Below, piece by piece: positions 6,686 to 43,240 of a stretch of DNA of 64,000 nt. Below the pieces are notes generated by a model. The model made no database searches, had not been told where the DNA came from, and was given only the letters and a program-made list of their open reading frames with translations. Every line of letters begins with the position of its first letter. Positions within the stretch are counted from its first letter, which is position 1. The stretch is from Pseudodesulfovibrio sediminis. Its GTDB lineage: Bacteria > Desulfobacterota > Desulfovibrionia > Desulfovibrionales > Desulfovibrionaceae. Location: the NCBI RefSeq assembly GCF_020886695.1, contig NZ_AP024485.1, positions 3,415,001-3,479,000 of the forward strand. The letters are read 5' to 3'. Made by a program: the position numbers and the translations under genes.

Positions 6686-6736
6686 TTCCTTGGAGCCAGG
6701 AATCGGAGTTGAACCGACGACCTACTGATTACGAAT
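6686..6736 (-). repeat. attL: 51-bp duplicate of tRNA-Thr 3' end
   Basis: The 51 bases are identical to 43160-43210 in the tRNA-Thr gene, including the CCA, T arm and part of the anticodon stem and loop. Identity breaks at 6685 and 6737. This is the fragment left at the far end when the phage attP restored the tRNA at the other end. Confidence 0.95.
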
Positions 6737-7280: not shown

Positions 7281-8606
7281 GTGGGCTGTTGCAAATGCGA
7301 AGAACATGAGTGGGATGATCCGCAACCTGTTGTTTATACGGATTCGGATGACGGCAAGGACTATTGCCTATTCCATGCCCCGGCGGAGCATAAGGGTGTA
7401 TCTGTCGATGGATTCAATGAACAGGTGTCAGAGCGTATACAGGCTACGGTAGATCTCGGGGAAGAGGTACCGCCATGCGATTTGAGTGGAACTATATTTC
7501 CGGGAGATATTTGCTTTGATCGAGATTGCATTTTGCCTTGTATCACATTTCAACATGCTCAGTTTGTAGGACATGCATTTTTTGACTGTGTTACCTTAAG
7601 AGGTCAGGCACTCTTTGATGAAGTTTCCTTCAAGAGGGACGCCTGCTTTCGCAGTGTCACCTTTGATGGTGCAGTCTTTTTCAAAGAGGCTATATTCAGT
7701 GGGAATGCACTTTTTTTGGGAACAAACTTCAATATGGGATTTTTCTCCAAAGCGACTTTTCACGAAGACGTGTTTTTACAGAATTCCACCTTTAATGGGG
7801 CGATAGATTTTATTGAGGCCACCTTTAAGAAAATGGCGTACTTTAATCGGGCCATTTTCGATGGAGACGCAACATTTATCAAGACGACCTTCTGTCAGAA
7901 CGCAGATTACTCAGGAACACAATGCAACACTAAGCTTCTTTTTGGATTAATTAAAATAGATGAAAATACTATTCTCAAATTTGCTAACTGCAGAATCTCC
8001 TCAGAGGCCATTACCTTCCAAAATTGCGATCCCACCTGTCTAGACCTCACCCAACAACGCGACCTAACCAATATCCATTTCATTGATTCCCCTTGGGAAA
8101 AGAATGACCGCATCAAGGCATGCACCGAGGATGACAGGCTTCAGCTCACCCGCGATTTTTACCAGCGTATGAAGGCCAAATACAAAGCCGAGAACAACGA
8201 ATATGAGGCGTCCAGATGGCATGTGGCTGAGAAGGAAGCACAGTTGAAGCTGCTTGGGCAAAGTGAGAATGTGAAGTTCAATTGGTTTATGTTGTGGCTT
8301 TACAAGCAGTCTAGCTTTTTTGGGGAGTGGCCGCGTCGGGCTTTTAAGGTGTTTCTGTTGCTTCTTTTTTTGCCGTTATTGATATTGACGGGCATTGAAG
8401 TATATCAGCATTTTGCGTGGATGCAATTTGATCCTGCAAAAGTGGACCATGTCATTGGCGAGTGGCTTAGGTATATCCCATTGACTAAAGCAGCCTCCGA
8501 TGAACCTTCTAGCGCTTTGCGCGCCTTCATGTTCTTCTGGCAACTCCTCATCACCGTCCAAGCCGCCCTGTTCGCATTCGCTCTGCGGAACAACTTCCGG
8601 CGCTAG
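7281..8606 (+). CDS. Pentapeptide-repeat protein with C-terminal membrane anchor
   Basis: The 441-residue product starts at a GTG with GGGAGG 6 bases upstream. Its N terminus has Cys/His pairs (CCKCEEH, YCLFH) that could bind metal. About residues 65-260 are F-rich pentapeptide repeats of the xxFxxA type, which fold as a right-handed beta helix. A charged linker follows, then two hydrophobic helices (about 355-380 and 415-435) and a basic FALRNNFRR end. The membrane part lacks a visible ion-selectivity motif, unlike the second pentapeptide protein at 35.9 kb. It is a cargo gene at the left prophage edge, probably expressed from its own promoter in the lysogen. Function is unknown; superinfection exclusion is one possibility. 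Confidence 0.8.
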   Translation: MGCCKCEEHEWDDPQPVVYTDSDDGKDYCLFHAPAEHKGVSVDGFNEQVSERIQATVDLGEEVPPCDLSGTIFPGDICFDRDCILPCITFQHAQFVGHAFFDCVTLRGQALFDEVSFKRDACFRSVTFDGAVFFKEAIFSGNALFLGTNFNMGFFSKATFHEDVFLQNSTFNGAIDFIEATFKKMAYFNRAIFDGDATFIKTTFCQNADYSGTQCNTKLLFGLIKIDENTILKFANCRISSEAITFQNCDPTCLDLTQQRDLTNIHFIDSPWEKNDRIKACTEDDRLQLTRDFYQRMKAKYKAENNEYEASRWHVAEKEAQLKLLGQSENVKFNWFMLWLYKQSSFFGEWPRRAFKVFLLLLFLPLLILTGIEVYQHFAWMQFDPAKVDHVIGEWLRYIPLTKAASDEPSSALRAFMFFWQLLITVQAALFAFALRNNFRR

Positions 8607-9203: not shown

Positions 9204-9241
9204 AAAAAGCCCCCGGCAGTGTTTTTCTGCCGGGGGCTTGT
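9204..9241. terminator. Bidirectional rho-independent terminator (second copy)
   Basis: The hairpin has the same 12-bp stem and loop as the terminator at 8627. On the minus strand it ends the small helical-protein operon controlled by the C4-like RNA. Confidence 0.85.
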
Positions 9242-9267
9242 TTTATGCTTCCCTGTCTATTTTGCGC
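9204..9267. repeat. Duplicated gene-tail plus terminator, copy B
   Basis: This is the partner of 8627-8690. Here the repeat is still joined to its gene, the 74-codon helical protein read leftward. Confidence 0.75.
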
Positions 9268-9467
9268 GGGGCGTGTTTGTGGACGAGCGGCTGGACCGCC
9301 GTTGTGGATTCTTCGATGATTTGGGACAGCACGTAGAGGGTGCTGGTCAGGTCCTTGGCCGTGGCTGTCTCGGAGAGGATGGAAAGTTCCTCCAGGGCGT
9401 AGCCGATGCTTTGGAGGCGGCAGAGCGCCTTGCGCGGGGTCAGTCTGGGGGCGTCTTTTGCGGTCAT
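9243..9467 (-). CDS. Small helical protein A (74 aa), C4-RNA-linked
   Basis: The product is a small, mostly helical cytoplasmic protein with no recognised domain. Its core (RKALCRLQSIGYALEEL, then a turn and YVLSQIIEES) resembles in length and hydrophobic pattern the products at 33244 and 34765. The ATG at 9467 overlaps the stop of a 26-codon leader frame, so translation is probably coupled to it. The pair lies directly downstream of the C4-like RNA at 9551-9800, which can pair with the leader's ribosome-binding site. By position it corresponds to the antirepressor or Icd-like gene of phage P1-type c4 operons, but there is no sequence evidence for that function. Confidence 0.6.
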   Translation of the reverse strand: MTAKDAPRLTPRKALCRLQSIGYALEELSILSETATAKDLTSTLYVLSQIIEESTTAVQPLVHKHAPRKIDREA

Positions 9468-9544
9468 AATACCGCCCCTTTGTTGGGGTGGTTCCGTAGC
9501 GCGTCTACAGTAGTAGGGGCGTGAGGGTGGGGCGTGTGTGCCAT
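9464..9544 (-). CDS. 26-codon leader peptide under C4-like RNA
   Basis: The peptide starts MAHTPHPHAPTTV and is preceded by AAGGAG 7 bases before the ATG. Its stop overlaps the start of the 74-aa helical protein. The equivalent frame in the second locus starts MAQTITPSPVED, so the M-A-x-T start is shared. It probably acts as the regulated entry point for ribosomes. Coding status is inferred from these two features. Confidence 0.5.
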   Translation of the reverse strand: MAHTPHPHAPTTVDALRNHPNKGAVL

Positions 9545-9550
9545 GGGGCA

Positions 9551-9800
9551 TCTCCTTGAGTTGTGACTAAGACATCTTGCGAAATGCAAAATGCCGGGTG
9601 GTTAGTCACAGCTCAAGGAACTGTTGGCTTATTCCCCCGAAGGGTATTGTATTAGGCCACCACCCGGCATAATAAATTATGCACTTTTGCCCCCTCCGTC
9701 GGGCGCAAAAAAACCACTACTCACGGGTGTGGCTGCCGCCTTGAATGGTGTGACTAAACACCGTTAAGGCAGTAGGCCATACCATGCAGGGCTGTGTCAA
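9551..9800 (-). ncRNA. C4-like antisense/switch RNA, copy 1
   Basis: On the minus strand a 12-bp stem (9659-9670 with 9591-9602, ATGCCGGGTGGT/ACCACCCGGCAT) encloses a conserved loop of 46 bases identical in copy 2, including a CCCTTCGGGG hairpin. Within the loop lies an antisense segment (9602-9618) that can pair with the leader's ribosome-binding region (9554-9570; 16 of 17 bases), or with an upstream segment (9739-9757). This is the logic of phage C4 antisense RNA. TTGACA at 9795-9800 is a likely -35 box, conserved in copy 2. The RNA probably blocks translation of the leader and small-protein genes. Membership of the C4 family is from memory of its architecture, not from a search. Confidence 0.7.
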
Positions 9801-33036: not shown

Positions 33037-33213
33037 TGTTTCCTCGCAAAGTGCTAAAATGATGACACTTTTTATTTTTTTCGTTGCAAGATGACAACAT
33101 TCTGCCTTTCATTTTAGAAAAAAACAAGAAATTTGTTTCTTGGCGTGGTTTAAAAAAAATATAAAATGTTTCAATCTTTTAAATAGGCATCCGTGGGCTG
33201 TCACGCAATAGCG

Positions 33214-33244
33214 AAGCCCCGACCTTGATCGGGGCTTTCCTTTT
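33214..33244. terminator. Terminator downstream of helical protein B
   Basis: AGCCCCGA pairs with TCGGGGCT around CCTTGA; a T-run follows on the plus strand and a shorter one on the minus strand. It ends the second C4-linked operon. Confidence 0.7.
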
Positions 33245-33408
33245 TAATTATTTCGAGCCGAGTCCAATGCCTCTAAACAGGCGTCCAGATCGTTGGCTAG
33301 GAGGTTGAGTAGGGCTGCTAGGCCGACTCGCTCCAATTGGTTGGATAAGTAGCGTAGGGAATGGACAACAAGGGAAACTCGGTTGAGGGCTTGGTCCGGT
33401 TCCATCAT
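33244..33408 (-). CDS. Small helical protein B (54 aa)
   Basis: The 54-residue product (DQALNRVSLVVHSLRYLSNQ ... LANDLDACLEALDSARNN) is helical throughout and resembles helical proteins A and C in its pattern of leucines and acidic ends. Its start overlaps the stop of the preceding 54-codon gene (ATGA), so the two are coupled and both depend on the C4-like RNA upstream. Function unknown. Confidence 0.6.
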   Translation of the reverse strand: MMEPDQALNRVSLVVHSLRYLSNQLERVGLAALLNLLANDLDACLEALDSARNN

Positions 33409-33569
33409 ACGGCCTCCCGCGTTTCCAGTTGTTCGGCAATGCCGAATAACTTGCCGGTCAGATAGTCCAAAGTCGTGAATTCATCCGGGATGAGTTCACG
33501 CAGTTGGTTCAAGATGTCCGCTACATCGCGGATGTCCTCAACAGGGGAAGGGGTGATTGTTTGTGCCAT
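33405..33569 (-). CDS. C4-linked first gene (54 aa)
   Basis: The product starts MAQTITPSPVEDIRDVADIL and continues as an acidic helical protein (NQLRELIPDEFTTLDYLTGK). It shares the M-A-x-T start and place with the 26-codon leader of locus 1. GGAG is 6 bases before its ATG and lies inside the target of the antisense segment in the C4-like RNA. Confidence 0.6.
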   Translation of the reverse strand: MAQTITPSPVEDIRDVADILNQLRELIPDEFTTLDYLTGKLFGIAEQLETREAV

Positions 33570-33571
33570 GA

Positions 33572-33815
33572 GAAACTCCAAGTGTAGTTAATGCGGCACT
33601 GCAAAAAGCAAATGCCGGGTGGTAACTACAGCTTGGAGCTGCTGGCTTATTCCCCCGAAGGGTATTGTATTAGGCCACCACCCGGCATGAAGATCATACC
33701 GTATTGCCCTATCTAGAGGGCGCAAAAAAACCACTTCTCTCGGGCGTGGCAACCGCCAAGGTGTAGTTAGCACCAAAGCCAGTAAGCCATAGAGAACGGG
33801 GTGGTGTCAAGAAGC
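33572..33815 (-). ncRNA. C4-like antisense/switch RNA, copy 2
   Basis: The element has the same 12-bp stem (33677-33688 with 33612-33623) and the same 46-base loop as copy 1. The antisense segment in the loop (33623-33638) can pair with the ribosome-binding region of the following gene (33576-33590) or with an upstream segment (33756-33769). At three positions the pairing bases differ from copy 1, and both partners have changed together. TTGACA at 33805-33810 matches the -35 element of copy 1. A 62-codon open frame runs through the element, but it has no support as a gene. Confidence 0.7.
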
Positions 33816-33905
33816 TGTATCGTTTCCCTCAATGACCACAAGTCCATGATCTATCAACGCATCAATAGCATCACTAACTGCGTCTTCCTGTGAATAGATT
33901 CTCAT
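33807..33905 (-). CDS. Possible 32-codon frame
   Basis: MRIYSQEDAVSDAIDALIDH is followed by a short tail and a stop inside the likely promoter of C4-like RNA 2. It begins 12 bases after the exported-protein gene. There is no clear ribosome-binding site, so coding status is doubtful. Confidence 0.25.
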   Translation of the reverse strand: MRIYSQEDAVSDAIDALIDHGLVVIEGNDTAS

Positions 33906-33917
33906 GTTGAATTTCGT

Positions 33918-34643
33918 TTATTGTTGTTTTGACGGAACTGCAGTCAATTCTAAATATGTCTTTCCATCTATTTTCGAGGCGGTCATGGTTATTAAAGCGT
34001 TAGAGTGCTCGGATATTTGTTGAGAGCCAATGTCTTGAACAGCAGCTTTGAGCATGGAGGCCCAGTAAAAGGCAATCTGCATATTCGTGAGGCTTGGATC
34101 TATGCATCCGAAGAAAGCGATCATGGTTTTTGTAGGAACCTCCATTTTCCCTTTTTCAGCTAGGCAACTCATACCGGCTTTGGTCAGCATGCCACCTGTT
34201 TCCGCAATATGAAATTCAACACCAGAAGCTTCATACTGTGACCATGTACTTTTTTTGAATTCAAGCCCAGTTAGCTCTTTGAGCATTGAATCAATGAAAG
34301 CCGTGTATGTAGTGTTAAAAGCAGGAGGCATTGGTGGTGCTTGGCCCGTGACAGCTCTTTCAATGGCAGCTTGGTCTACAGAAGGAGGGGAATGTTGGAT
34401 CCCTGGCGAAAGAGACATAGCTGTGCCATTGCATGCGTATATATGTTTGTCTTTTATCCAATATCCCGCCTCGTTATTAACGAGAATTGCTGACCCCCCG
34501 TAGAGCGGATACACTTTCCAGTTTTCAACATTGTACGGAGTTGTCCAAGTCTTACTGATTTTTTCATAACCGTACATTTCAGGTCCCCACCCTCCCAGTA
34601 AAAGAACTGAGCATAGGATAAGAACCTGTAACAATCTAACCAT
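33918..34643 (-). CDS. Exported protein of unknown function
   Basis: The 241-residue product has a hydrophobic signal segment (VRLLQVLILCSVLLLGGWG) and a mature part with few recognisable motifs: IYACNGTAMSL, FNTTYTAFIDSMLKELTG and MSCLAEKGKMEVPTKTMIAF. Three cysteines in the mature part may form disulfides. GAGG lies before the ATG. It is cargo between C4-like RNA 2 and helical protein C; an envelope role is likely. Confidence 0.6.
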   Translation of the reverse strand: MVRLLQVLILCSVLLLGGWGPEMYGYEKISKTWTTPYNVENWKVYPLYGGSAILVNNEAGYWIKDKHIYACNGTAMSLSPGIQHSPPSVDQAAIERAVTGQAPPMPPAFNTTYTAFIDSMLKELTGLEFKKSTWSQYEASGVEFHIAETGGMLTKAGMSCLAEKGKMEVPTKTMIAFFGCIDPSLTNMQIAFYWASMLKAAVQDIGSQQISEHSNALITMTASKIDGKTYLELTAVPSKQQ

Positions 34644-34725
34644 GATACCTCCTCGTTATGGGGTGTCCTTTATCATTTTTTTTGTTGTCTGTGTAGGGTT
34701 CAATTCTGAGGGGACTTGGGACGTA

Positions 34726-34765
34726 AAAGACCCCGGCAGTATCCACACTGCCGGGGCTTTTCCTT
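34726..34765. terminator. Bidirectional terminator
   Basis: ACCCCGGCAGT pairs with ACTGCCGGGGCT across ATCCAC; A and T runs flank it. The stem sequence (CCCCGGCAG) matches the terminators at 8627, 9204 and 32303. Confidence 0.8.
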
Positions 34766-34938
34766 TATCCTTTCTCCGTATCATCCAACGCCAACAAACA
34801 TTCCATCACATCATCCCCCAGCAGATGGAGAAGTTCGCCTCCGTCTGGCTGATGTTCGGCCAGCCAGTAAAGAGCTTGGGCAATCCGTGAGAGTTTGTTC
34901 AGGGTGTCTTCATATGAGATCGGGTTCTGGTCGAGCAT
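34765..34938 (-). CDS. Small helical protein C (57 aa)
   Basis: The product (YEDTLNKLSRIAQALYWLAE ... LLGDDVMECLLALDDTEKG) has the same length and helix pattern as proteins A and B. GGAG is 9 bases before the ATG and the gene ends in a related terminator. No C4-like RNA lies upstream of this copy. Confidence 0.6.
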   Translation of the reverse strand: MLDQNPISYEDTLNKLSRIAQALYWLAEHQPDGGELLHLLGDDVMECLLALDDTEKG

Positions 34939-34980
34939 GCGTAATCTCCAATCATGAGTGGGTGCCTTCCCTCAAAGGCC

Positions 34981-35139
34981 ATGGTGCGCACAAACGATTG
35001 GCGCGTGGGGAGAAATACGCTGGAATTACGAGTGAAATTGGATCAACTAACTGATTTAATGTGGTTTATGGATAACGGCGAGCAGTGGAAGTGTGGTTTC
35101 CATTCCCTCAATGGGGGAGGGGGCATCGGAAAAGTGTAA
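34981..35139 (+). CDS. Possible small frame at edge of inverted repeat
   Basis: MVRTNDWRVGRNTLELRVKL continues to MDNGEQWKCGFHSLNGGG and stops inside the left arm of the inverted repeat. The residue composition looks protein-like, but the ribosome-binding site is weak. It may be a fragment of a larger gene. Confidence 0.3.
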   Translation: MVRTNDWRVGRNTLELRVKLDQLTDLMWFMDNGEQWKCGFHSLNGGGGIGKV

Positions 35140-35428
35140 CTTTTGTAATCAGCATAGCTGAATCTGCCGCCAACCCGCAGTATGCCTTGATTTCATGAAC
35201 ATGGTCAAAATGTAATTTTACTGTAAATAAGTGTAACCAGAAATGTAATGAGTAATAAAATCAACAGGTTGAAATATTGAGAAATGTAATGGATTGAGTG
35301 TAATTAAATTACATATTTATTACTAAAAAATTACATTTCATGATTCCCTCTTAGCCGTTGGCACTCATAGCTTTCTGAGCTTTTAAAAATTGTGATTACA
35401 AAAATTACACTTTTCCGAACCCCTCCCC
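35113..35428. repeat. 316-bp inverted-repeat region with nested palindromes
   Basis: The arms are 35113-35151 and 35393-35428. Their core TCGGAAAAGTGTAA plus TTTTTGTAATCA is matched with one mismatch, and a G-rich stretch extends the match outward. Between them an AT-rich segment holds many TGTAAT/ATTACA motifs, including the perfect palindrome TGTAATTAAATTACA nested inside GAAATGTAAT...ATTACATTTC. It contains no gene. It may be a replication origin for the nearby primase/helicase, a regulator-binding array or a small inserted element. Confidence 0.6.
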
Positions 35429-35749: not shown

Positions 35750-35852
35750 CTACGGTTTACGCGGCCAGTTCGGTTGACATATTCGACAATTCAGGAGCAA
35801 CCTCCTCAAGAATCATATTCTCTATTTCATCTTTATTTTGGAGGCTTTCCTT

Positions 35853-37025
35853 ATGGCGAACCCCGATCATTTGAAAATATTGGAACAAGGCGTTGAGACT
35901 TGGAATAAATGGAGAGAGGACAATCCAGAAGTTGTTCCAGACTTTCAAAACGCGGAACTCAATGGCCTGATCTGTAATGCCCCAGAGCTTGTGGGATTGC
36001 AGTCAGACAATCAGATCTTTCAATGGAAAACAATCCAATGGTTGCACGGCGGAGAGGCAGTGGTAGTAGCTTTTGACCCAATTGAGAAGATGACCATCCA
36101 TGGGATAAATTTTCAGGGGGTGGATTTTCGAGGGGCTCAACTCAAAGGAGCAAAGTTCTTGGGAGCGGATTTTAAAGAAGCAGATCTCCGAGGGGCCAAC
36201 CTCCATATGGCACTCCTTTGGGGGACAATCTTTCACAAGGCAAAACTCAACAATGTAGTTTTTGATTTCGTAGAAGCTTATGGGTCGAGTTTTTATAAAG
36301 CAAAATTTACTGATGCCTTTCTCCAAAGCGTCAAATTTCAGAGAACCAATTGTGTAGAAGTGAGTTTCAAAAGAACGAAGTGTCTTGGTGCCGATTTCTC
36401 CGACTCGGCTATTGAACTTGCTAATTTTCAATCGGCTAAGCTTACTAAGGCTATTTTTCATGGTTCGAGTATTATTGAAGCGAAATTTCAAGGGGCAGAG
36501 TTGTCTTGGGCAAACCTGTCTGACACTCAAGTCGCTGGCGTTGAATTTGACAATAAAATGAATTGTAGGGGAATCTCTGTGACCAACTGCGAAGGCAGTC
36601 AAAGATTTATCCGCCACGTTATGGACTTGGATTACATCGAGGAGACCAAAGAGAAGCATCCCAAATTCTATTGGTGGTGGAAGAACACTTCCGACTGTGG
36701 GCGTTCCTGGGGGCATTGGGCAGTTATCTCTTTTGGCATAGCGATGATCTTTGGTGGTATTATGGATCTTAGTCGTCATTTGTTGACTTGGTTCCCGTGG
36801 ATGGATGCTTTTGTTCCAGCTATGCAGGCCAGCCATTTGCAGGATGGTTGGCTCACTCCATACTATTTCAGCATCGTGACCTTCACCACCCTGGGATTCG
36901 GGGACGTTGTCCCGGTTAATACTGCGGGCCAAGTCCTGTTGATCCTCGAAGTGGTCACCGGCTACTTCATGCTCGGCGGTCTGATAACGCTGTTCGCAAC
37001 CAGAATAGTGCGGCAGAGCGGATAG
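35853..37025 (+). CDS. Pentapeptide-repeat protein fused to two-TM potassium-channel-like domain
   Basis: The 390-residue product has an N-terminal helical part, pentapeptide repeats at about residues 85-230 (GVDFRGAQLKGAKFLGADF and similar), a linker and a C-terminal channel module. That module has one helix (HWAVISFGIAMIFGGIMDLS), a pore loop TFTTLGFGDVVPVN with the TLGFGD form of the potassium filter, and a second helix (LLILEVVTGYFMLGGLITLF). ATG 35853 has GGAGG 8 bases upstream and is preferred over ATG 35838. The beta helix could sense a ligand or phage protein and gate ion flow. It is prophage cargo near the replication module. Confidence 0.82.
   Translation: MANPDHLKILEQGVETWNKWREDNPEVVPDFQNAELNGLICNAPELVGLQSDNQIFQWKTIQWLHGGEAVVVAFDPIEKMTIHGINFQGVDFRGAQLKGAKFLGADFKEADLRGANLHMALLWGTIFHKAKLNNVVFDFVEAYGSSFYKAKFTDAFLQSVKFQRTNCVEVSFKRTKCLGADFSDSAIELANFQSAKLTKAIFHGSSIIEAKFQGAELSWANLSDTQVAGVEFDNKMNCRGISVTNCEGSQRFIRHVMDLDYIEETKEKHPKFYWWWKNTSDCGRSWGHWAVISFGIAMIFGGIMDLSRHLLTWFPWMDAFVPAMQASHLQDGWLTPYYFSIVTFTTLGFGDVVPVNTAGQVLLILEVVTGYFMLGGLITLFATRIVRQSG

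Positions 37026-43159: not shown

Positions 43160-43240
<81 letters not shown>

Follow-up and report, generated by a model that had tools for sequence, protein, structure and literature searches.

Candidate C4-type antisense repressors on an sRNA-Xcc1 (RF02221) scaffold in a Pseudodesulfovibrio prophage

Two small operons of Pseudodesulfovibrio sediminis are each preceded by short segments that recur in direct and in inverted orientation. This raises the question of whether the segments belong to antisense RNAs and, if so, whether each RNA acts on its own operon only. An earlier note on this DNA had proposed two C4-like RNAs with distinct targets. The window, that is, the whole stretch of 64,000 nucleotides analysed here, covers positions 3415001-3479000 of a 3.76 Mb single-contig genome. 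Within it, 51 nt recur in direct orientation (6686-6736 and 43160-43210), the second copy lying in the 3' part of a tRNA-Thr gene. These repeats are the attachment sites bounding a 36.5 kb Pseudodesulfovibrio prophage, read as P2-like, which carries portal, terminase, capsid, tail and baseplate genes and an integrase adjoining the tRNA. Both loci lie within this prophage on the minus strand, locus 1 at 9.2-9.8 kb and locus 2 at 33.2-33.8 kb, and a whole-genome search (E up to 0.001) gave no RF02221 match besides these two. On the evidence of their sequences, it is very likely that both are C4-type antisense repressors built on the RF02221 (sRNA-Xcc1) scaffold and acting as self-contained switches.

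Anatomy and pairing of the two loci

The loci share a common order of elements, comprising a sigma-70-like promoter, an upstream target copy (a1/b1), a U-rich hairpin, the RNA, a second target copy (a2/b2) with the Shine-Dalgarno sequence, ORF1, ORF2 and a terminator. The RNA is complementary to both target copies, and b2 overlaps the ribosome-binding site of ORF1 at both loci.

In locus 1, a -35-like TTGACA (9795-9800) is separated by 18 nt from CCTACT (9776-9771), both assigned by eye. The upstream copy (9739-9757) consists of a1, TTAGTCACA (9757-9749), and b1, CAAGG, and is followed by a terminator-like hairpin with a U7 tract (9707-9732). The antisense RNA, of 78 nt (9592-9669), corresponds to an RF02221 match at 9584-9669, which at 56.1 bits exceeds the gathering cut-off of 53 and places the RNA in that family. 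Its antisense blocks (9602-9619), assigned from sequence and duplex prediction, are b', TCCTTGAG (9619-9612), and a', TGTGACTAA (9610-9602). The target (9553-9570), assigned in the same way, comprises a2, TTAGTCACA (9570-9562), and b2 with the Shine-Dalgarno sequence, CTCAAGGA (9560-9553). ORF1 is a leader ORF of 26 aa (9464-9544) and ORF2, of 74 aa (9243-9467), overlaps it by ATGA; an alternative in-frame start at 9551 would extend ORF2 to 102 aa. A strong hairpin terminator lies 3' of ORF2 (9207-9239). A homologue search with ORF2 returned seven proteins including itself, the three named ones being Pseudodesulfovibrio hypothetical proteins.

In locus 2, the -35-like TTGACA (33805-33810) precedes CTTACT (33786-33781), again by eye and with 18 nt spacing. 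A consensus promoter scan, which requires the second hexamer (CTTACT at locus 2) to have A as its second base, found no promoter at the assigned -35/-10 of either RNA. The upstream copy (33756-33769) holds a1, TAACTACA (33769-33762), and b1, CCTTGG, and the terminator-like hairpin with its U7 tract follows at 33724-33749. The antisense RNA is 75 nt long, counted from P1 strand to P1 strand (33613-33687), and its RF02221 match (33605-33687) scores 52.7 bits, which falls 0.3 under the cut-off of 53 and so formally short of membership. The anti-Shine-Dalgarno block b', CTCCAAG (33632-33638), assigned from sequence and duplex, lies in the P3 loop region, and a', TGTAGTTA (33623-33630), lies mostly in the linker between P3 and P1. 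The target (33576-33590), supported by pairing statistics as well as sequence, consists of a2, TAACTACA (33590-33583), and b2 with the Shine-Dalgarno sequence, CTTGGAG (33582-33576). ORF1 (33405-33569) and ORF2 (33244-33408) are both 54 aa long and overlap by ATGA, and a strong hairpin terminator follows ORF2 (33213-33238).

The two RNA scaffolds are identical over the first 45 nt and the last 11 nt, and the sole difference between the RNAs is the insert between these parts, of 22 nt in locus 1 and 19 nt in locus 2. By minimum free energy, the locus 1 RNA folds into three stems, and the fold of the locus 2 RNA lacks the outer P2. An alifold consensus retains 12 pairs, namely eight in P1, a 3-bp P2 and one more, with P3 and part of P2 being weak. 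At both loci block a', mostly in the linker, pairs with a2, and block b', in the hairpin-loop region, pairs with the Shine-Dalgarno sequence. The two blocks are split by one base of a conserved GCUG half-stem, which is mismatched in locus 1 and bulges out in locus 2.

This complementarity is unlikely to be fortuitous. TTAGTCACA and its complement TGTGACTAA give three matches in the window versus 0.19 expected. The RNA-leader duplexes have predicted energies of -27.4 kcal/mol at locus 1 and -23.6 kcal/mol at locus 2, values reached by 0 of 2000 and 15 of 2000 dinucleotide-shuffled leaders, respectively, and crossed RNA-leader pairs between the loci reach -9.0 and -11.5 kcal/mol. When matched against 187 leaders of the family, the locus 1 RNA pairs best with its own, by a margin of 6 kcal/mol. 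Counting against the pairing evidence, the locus 2 RNA has slightly lower duplex energies with two unrelated foreign leaders (-24.3 and -23.7 kcal/mol) than with its own.

Orthologues of locus 2 ORF1, 76 and 72% identical, are found in two genomes of the same genus (L218 and L217), and there the a1/b1 copy, the RNA and the a2/b2 copy have changed in step: TAACTACA with TTGG in the window (L002) corresponds to TAAACACA with TTGG in L218 and to TAAACACA with TAGG in L217. In a 4 x 4 matrix of the two window loci and the two orthologous loci, every RNA binds its own leader best.

The earlier note had held that the differences between the loci are mirrored in all three partners of each, and this is borne out, also in the two orthologues. 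The pairing evidence that it cited is real, and indeed stronger than claimed, as the second block, b' against the Shine-Dalgarno sequence, had been overlooked. Its three complementary segments per locus stand for the 9-mer of locus 1, which has three partners, but not for that of locus 2: the 9-mer TTAACTACA occurs once, and the string common to all three partners is the 8-mer TAACTACA/TGTAGTTA. The segment that it labelled loop antisense lies mostly in the P3-P1 linker, the loop region being occupied by the anti-Shine-Dalgarno block. As for the proposal that each RNA should act on its own operon only, the predicted duplex energies between the two loci support it.

Pairing across the RF02221 family

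Of 199 genomes from the family to which this one belongs, 64 contain RF02221, as do 10 of 395 genomes of the phylum, both counts including this genome, and some single genomes of the family are rich in it (13 copies in G493, nine in G405). It was also found in 26 of 369 genomes of the class of Zhongshania antarctica (Gammaproteobacteria) and in 25 of 210 genomes of one order reached from that class. A model built from 44 copies gave 111, 74 and 86 matches in three locus sets. Within this total of 271 (E up to 0.01) some loci overlap, and a few of the lowest-scoring matches are probably spurious. Of the 271, 15 were removed because the P1 stem was poor or because fewer than 200 nt followed downstream, as were 58 near-duplicates and 11 copies without a usable start call, so that 187 non-redundant copies remained.

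In a test anchored on the start codon, and designed after the results of two looser tests and inspection of sequences, the own pairing of 133 of these 187 copies scores higher than the 95th percentile of swapped RNA-leader pairs, and that of 79 of them higher than the 99th; the other 54 do not exceed the 95th. The own leader ranks first among the 187 for 67 copies and within the top five for 120. The upstream a1/b1 copy exceeds the 95th percentile in 130 of 182 cases, and a decoy segment taken from within the ORF at that locus does so in 3 of 186. Copies that pass have their b target at median positions -15 to -8 relative to the start codon, and their a target at -25 to -19. As to the earlier and looser tests, with a single ungapped block sought in 180 nt downstream, 21 of 198 copies exceeded the 99th percentile (17 at rank 1), and with two blocks but no start-codon call, 101 of 198 exceeded the 95th (30 at rank 1). 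In a separate set of 27 loci outside the 187, in which close relatives share leaders and two loci have no ORF call, 11 of 25 RNAs paired best with their own leader.

To allow for relatedness, pairs of copies with related target proteins and different antisense were compared, with one locus set included that is absent from the 187-copy test. Among 228 such pairs, the own pairing is more stable in 216, equal in 10 and less stable in two; counted by cluster, 18 of 25 are positive, six zero and one negative. Restricting the comparison to the 24 pairs with a protein 4-mer Jaccard index of at least 0.5 leaves 15 positive, nine zero and none negative. The zero pairs inspected are mostly tandem RNAs facing one and the same ORF.

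The anatomy, the two-block complementarity, its excess over swapped pairs and the three-way covariation are thus established at the level of sequence, and most of the RF02221 copies tested look like a phage-style off-switch for the adjacent gene. The 133 cognate pairs among 187 also form a data set on how specificity is kept on a constant scaffold while the antisense changes.

Proposed mechanism, RNA release and alternative explanations

It is proposed that a promoter upstream of a1/b1 would give rise to one transcript spanning a1/b1, the RNA and the leader of the two-gene operon. The RNA would be released from it as a discrete molecule, its 3' end in the window probably lying at P1 and the following U tract; in the gammaproteobacterial relatives, release would probably occur by RNase P-type processing. 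Pairing of b' in the loop and a' in the linker with the Shine-Dalgarno sequence and the sequence just before it would then block translation of ORF1, and ORF2, coupled to ORF1 through the ATGA overlap, would be expected to fall with it. Since the antisense is an exchangeable insert of 19-22 nt on a constant scaffold, the two prophage copies should not cross-regulate.

The position of the promoter in this scheme is consistent with the wider family. In 181 loci, 110 of 143 occurrences of TTGAC[AT] fall in a peak 100-175 nt ahead of the RNA, that is, before a1/b1, which is also where the annotated P1c4 promoter stands in phage P1. Among non-redundant copies, 117 of 213 have a run of at least five T at 25-80 nt before the RNA, compared with 29 of 212 further upstream, and the full CCCG..AG..T-run hairpin motif is present upstream in 107 of 213. 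A model of the upstream element, R2, was built from 45 loci that had been picked by the CCCG..AG..T-run pattern, so that conservation of this part is by construction. It matches locus 1 at 9700-9775, locus 1 being part of its training set, and locus 2, which lies outside that set, at 33717-33787; in a scan of 50 other hand-picked loci, none of them used for training, the a1/b1 element was found in 36. Candidate roles for a1/b1 and the U7 hairpin are self-attenuation or service as a decoy for the RNA.

The sequence that follows P1 differs between groups of relatives. At both window loci it is a U tract, without RCC. Among the Desulfovibrio-type copies (L126-L248, a group that includes loci from other families of the phylum), at least five T occur in the 9 nt after P1 in 85 of 108 and RCC in two. 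In a mostly viral group, which includes three genome contigs, RCC directly follows P1 in 43 of 77 copies and a T-rich sequence in five. RCC after a stem resembles tRNA and is the signal that an RNase P substrate would be expected to carry. C4 itself is described as processed by RNase P (PMC5320573). Given this division between U tract and RCC, the manner of RNA release may differ between the groups.

These ends bear on the main rival explanation, which would dispense with a free RNA altogether. In such a cis-only attenuator the antisense arm would sequester the Shine-Dalgarno sequence of its own transcript, and the whole-leader fold does predict that the antisense pairs with the downstream target in cis on the long transcript. 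The succession of a1/b1 and a terminator-like U7 hairpin likewise resembles attenuation. A P1 stem followed by a U tract or by RCC is, however, what would be expected of a released RNA, and the founding member of the family, sRNA-Xcc1, is reported as a discrete RNA, measured at 88 nt by RACE and at about 100 nt on Northern blots (PMC2996969); the RF02221 model, with 87 positions, is close to the RACE product in length. The cis-only explanation is accordingly considered unlikely. Action of the RNA in cis and action in trans are not mutually exclusive.

A second rival, that the RNA acts in trans with its main targets elsewhere, in host genes or other phages, and that the match to the adjacent gene is secondary, appears quite improbable. 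sRNA-Xcc1 is indeed called trans-acting, and HrpG/HrpX-regulated, by Chen et al. 2011 in their title (cited in PMC12444791), and 212 targets have been predicted for the Xylella copies (PMC12189769). Some loci (L033, L036, L077) also contain tandem RF02221 copies that face the same downstream ORF, so that some copies are without a target of their own; the extra ones may be orphans, decoys or trans-acting. Yet in 120 of 187 cases the own leader ranks within the best five, and in the 228-pair comparison the antisense follows the adjacent leader among relatives. Finally, a set of three operator-like or recombination sites with no RNA function would look alike in its inverted and direct copies, but the placing of the b block on the Shine-Dalgarno sequence at a narrow distance from the start codon, the fact that the complementary segments fall in a conserved RNA's loop and linker, and the near absence of signal inside the ORF (3/186) make such DNA-level repeats extremely improbable.

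Relation to known systems and target genes

The reading of the two loci as C4-type repressors invites comparison with phage P1, the record of which has the same order of elements as the window loci: a1, b1, c4 (77 nt), a2, b2, icd and ant1. In P1, ant1 starts inside the end of icd, much as ORF2 overlaps ORF1 by ATGA in the window. The loop and linker antisense blocks and the position of b2 at the ribosome-binding site are shared with C4 of P1 and P7 (immI operon, c4-icd-ant), and RCC after the P1 stem is shared by many of the gammaproteobacterial and viral RF02221 relatives. When R2 was searched against 45 kb of phage P1, the only match at E up to 1 was the annotated a1/b1, a weak one (E 0.044) under a rough calibration.

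The differences lie in the RNA body and in the targets. Unlike C4, the window RNAs have the body of RF02221 (AAUACAAU...GAAUAA in P2), and P1 c4 scores only 7.8 bits with the RNA-body model R1. Also unlike P1 C4, the window targets are small uncharacterised ORFs, and the P1 stem is followed by a U tract rather than RCC. The C4 family, RF01695, had no match in the window at the gathering threshold, nor in 33100-35200 at E up to 10. Membership of the window RNAs in RF01695 was rejected for want of a match, locus 1 having been searched at gathering only. The P1-like order combined with a different RNA body suggests RNAs that work like C4 and are not members of RF01695. The description 'C4-like' in the earlier note is therefore upheld by the P1 order, the weak R2 match to P1 a1/b1 and the antisense-target covariation in the family and the orthologues, but assignment to the C4 family is not, as it is RF02221 that scores these RNAs.

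The two families have no common Rfam clan; the present analysis would join them in one functional class. The c4 and c4-a1b1 elements appear as motifs in Weinberg et al. 2010 (PMC2864571), and of the papers listed in a literature search only PMC12189769 names both sRNA-Xcc1 and C4, as separate table rows. The search, mostly of open-access papers, found no link between sRNA-Xcc1 and C4-type RNAs, which is not proof of absence. In Neisseria weixii (L004, 4600-5650), RF01695 and RF02221 copies alternate in tandem, four copies in all, with antirepressor-like genes or their remnants, judged by eye, after the first and last. The Group 1 sRNAs of Acinetobacter baumannii likewise have a C4-type scaffold with a variable a' (PMC5320573). 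They have been assigned to C4 and are described with two further RNAs antisense to them and without established targets; the name sRNA-Xcc1 is absent from the main text of that paper.

Antirepressor operons, the targets of many relatives, were not recognised in the window among the three ORFs scanned (locus 1 ORF2 and both ORFs of locus 2). For these ORFs, Pfam gave nothing above cut-off, one match to RPAP1_C (E 0.099) scoring 13 bits versus a cut-off of 27; a PHROG search found no family at the thresholds used, and PADLOC returned none for the three submitted. After the viral and gammaproteobacterial copies, 85 non-redundant next proteins of at least 50 aa include matches to Bro-N (19), P22_AR_N (11), Phage_pRha (10), KilA-N (8), AntA (5) and SymE (4), where one protein may have multiple matches. 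Another set of 92 next proteins has Phage_pRha (12), Bro-N (8), Phage_CI_repr (6), P22_AR_N (1) and AntA (1), and many of its remaining proteins are short, as in the window. On a Pseudomonas aeruginosa plasmid, an RF02221 copy lies before a BRO-family gene, near mer genes and a Tn3-family transposase.

Copies of the same covariance model as the window RNAs, RF02221 or sRNA-Xcc1, also occur before SymE-like ORFs. Eight lie directly upstream, and the antisense fits the leader, by eye and by duplex energy, although less well in two (-28.0, -25.5, -23.8, -23.5, -21.8, -20.1, -18.1 and -18.1 kcal/mol). Four of the eight ORFs are confirmed as SymE by Pfam and the other four by sequence similarity. 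In the SymE/SymR type I toxin-antitoxin system of E. coli, an antisense RNA is likewise directed against the SymE gene, and SymR lies opposite symE. Unlike SymR, the RF02221 RNA lies upstream of its target and in the same direction, with a copied antisense. SymR is described as a cis-encoded RNA in a 2025 integron paper (PMC12444791), which places sRNA-Xcc1 upstream of symE in Xanthomonas integron cassettes and there suggests only 'a divergent regulatory mechanism'.

Taken more widely, it is moderately likely that RF02221 is a reprogrammable antisense platform carried on phages, integrons, plasmids and transposons, which silences antirepressors, SymE toxins and small phage ORFs; sRNA-Xcc1 would then be primarily an antitoxin-like repressor of the adjacent symE. 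A family hitherto described as trans-acting and virulence-linked would thereby gain a testable mechanism and a candidate target at most of the loci examined, and C4-type control would extend to the prophages of Desulfovibrionaceae and to SymE.

Some further features of the prophage may be recorded. A 57 aa ORF at 34765-34938 (minus strand) resembles the ORF2 genes in length and style, by eye, and is followed by a hairpin and a T run; a covariance-model search of the window found no RF02221 match in front of it. A 36-nt inverted repeat (35116-35151 and 35393-35428; 86% complementary, 241 nt apart) sits in an AT-rich stretch with repeated TGTAAT-like words. Pentapeptide-like, repeat-rich ORFs lie near both ends of the late operon, at 7281-8606 and 35838-37025, and the C-terminus of the latter is, by eye, ion-channel-like.
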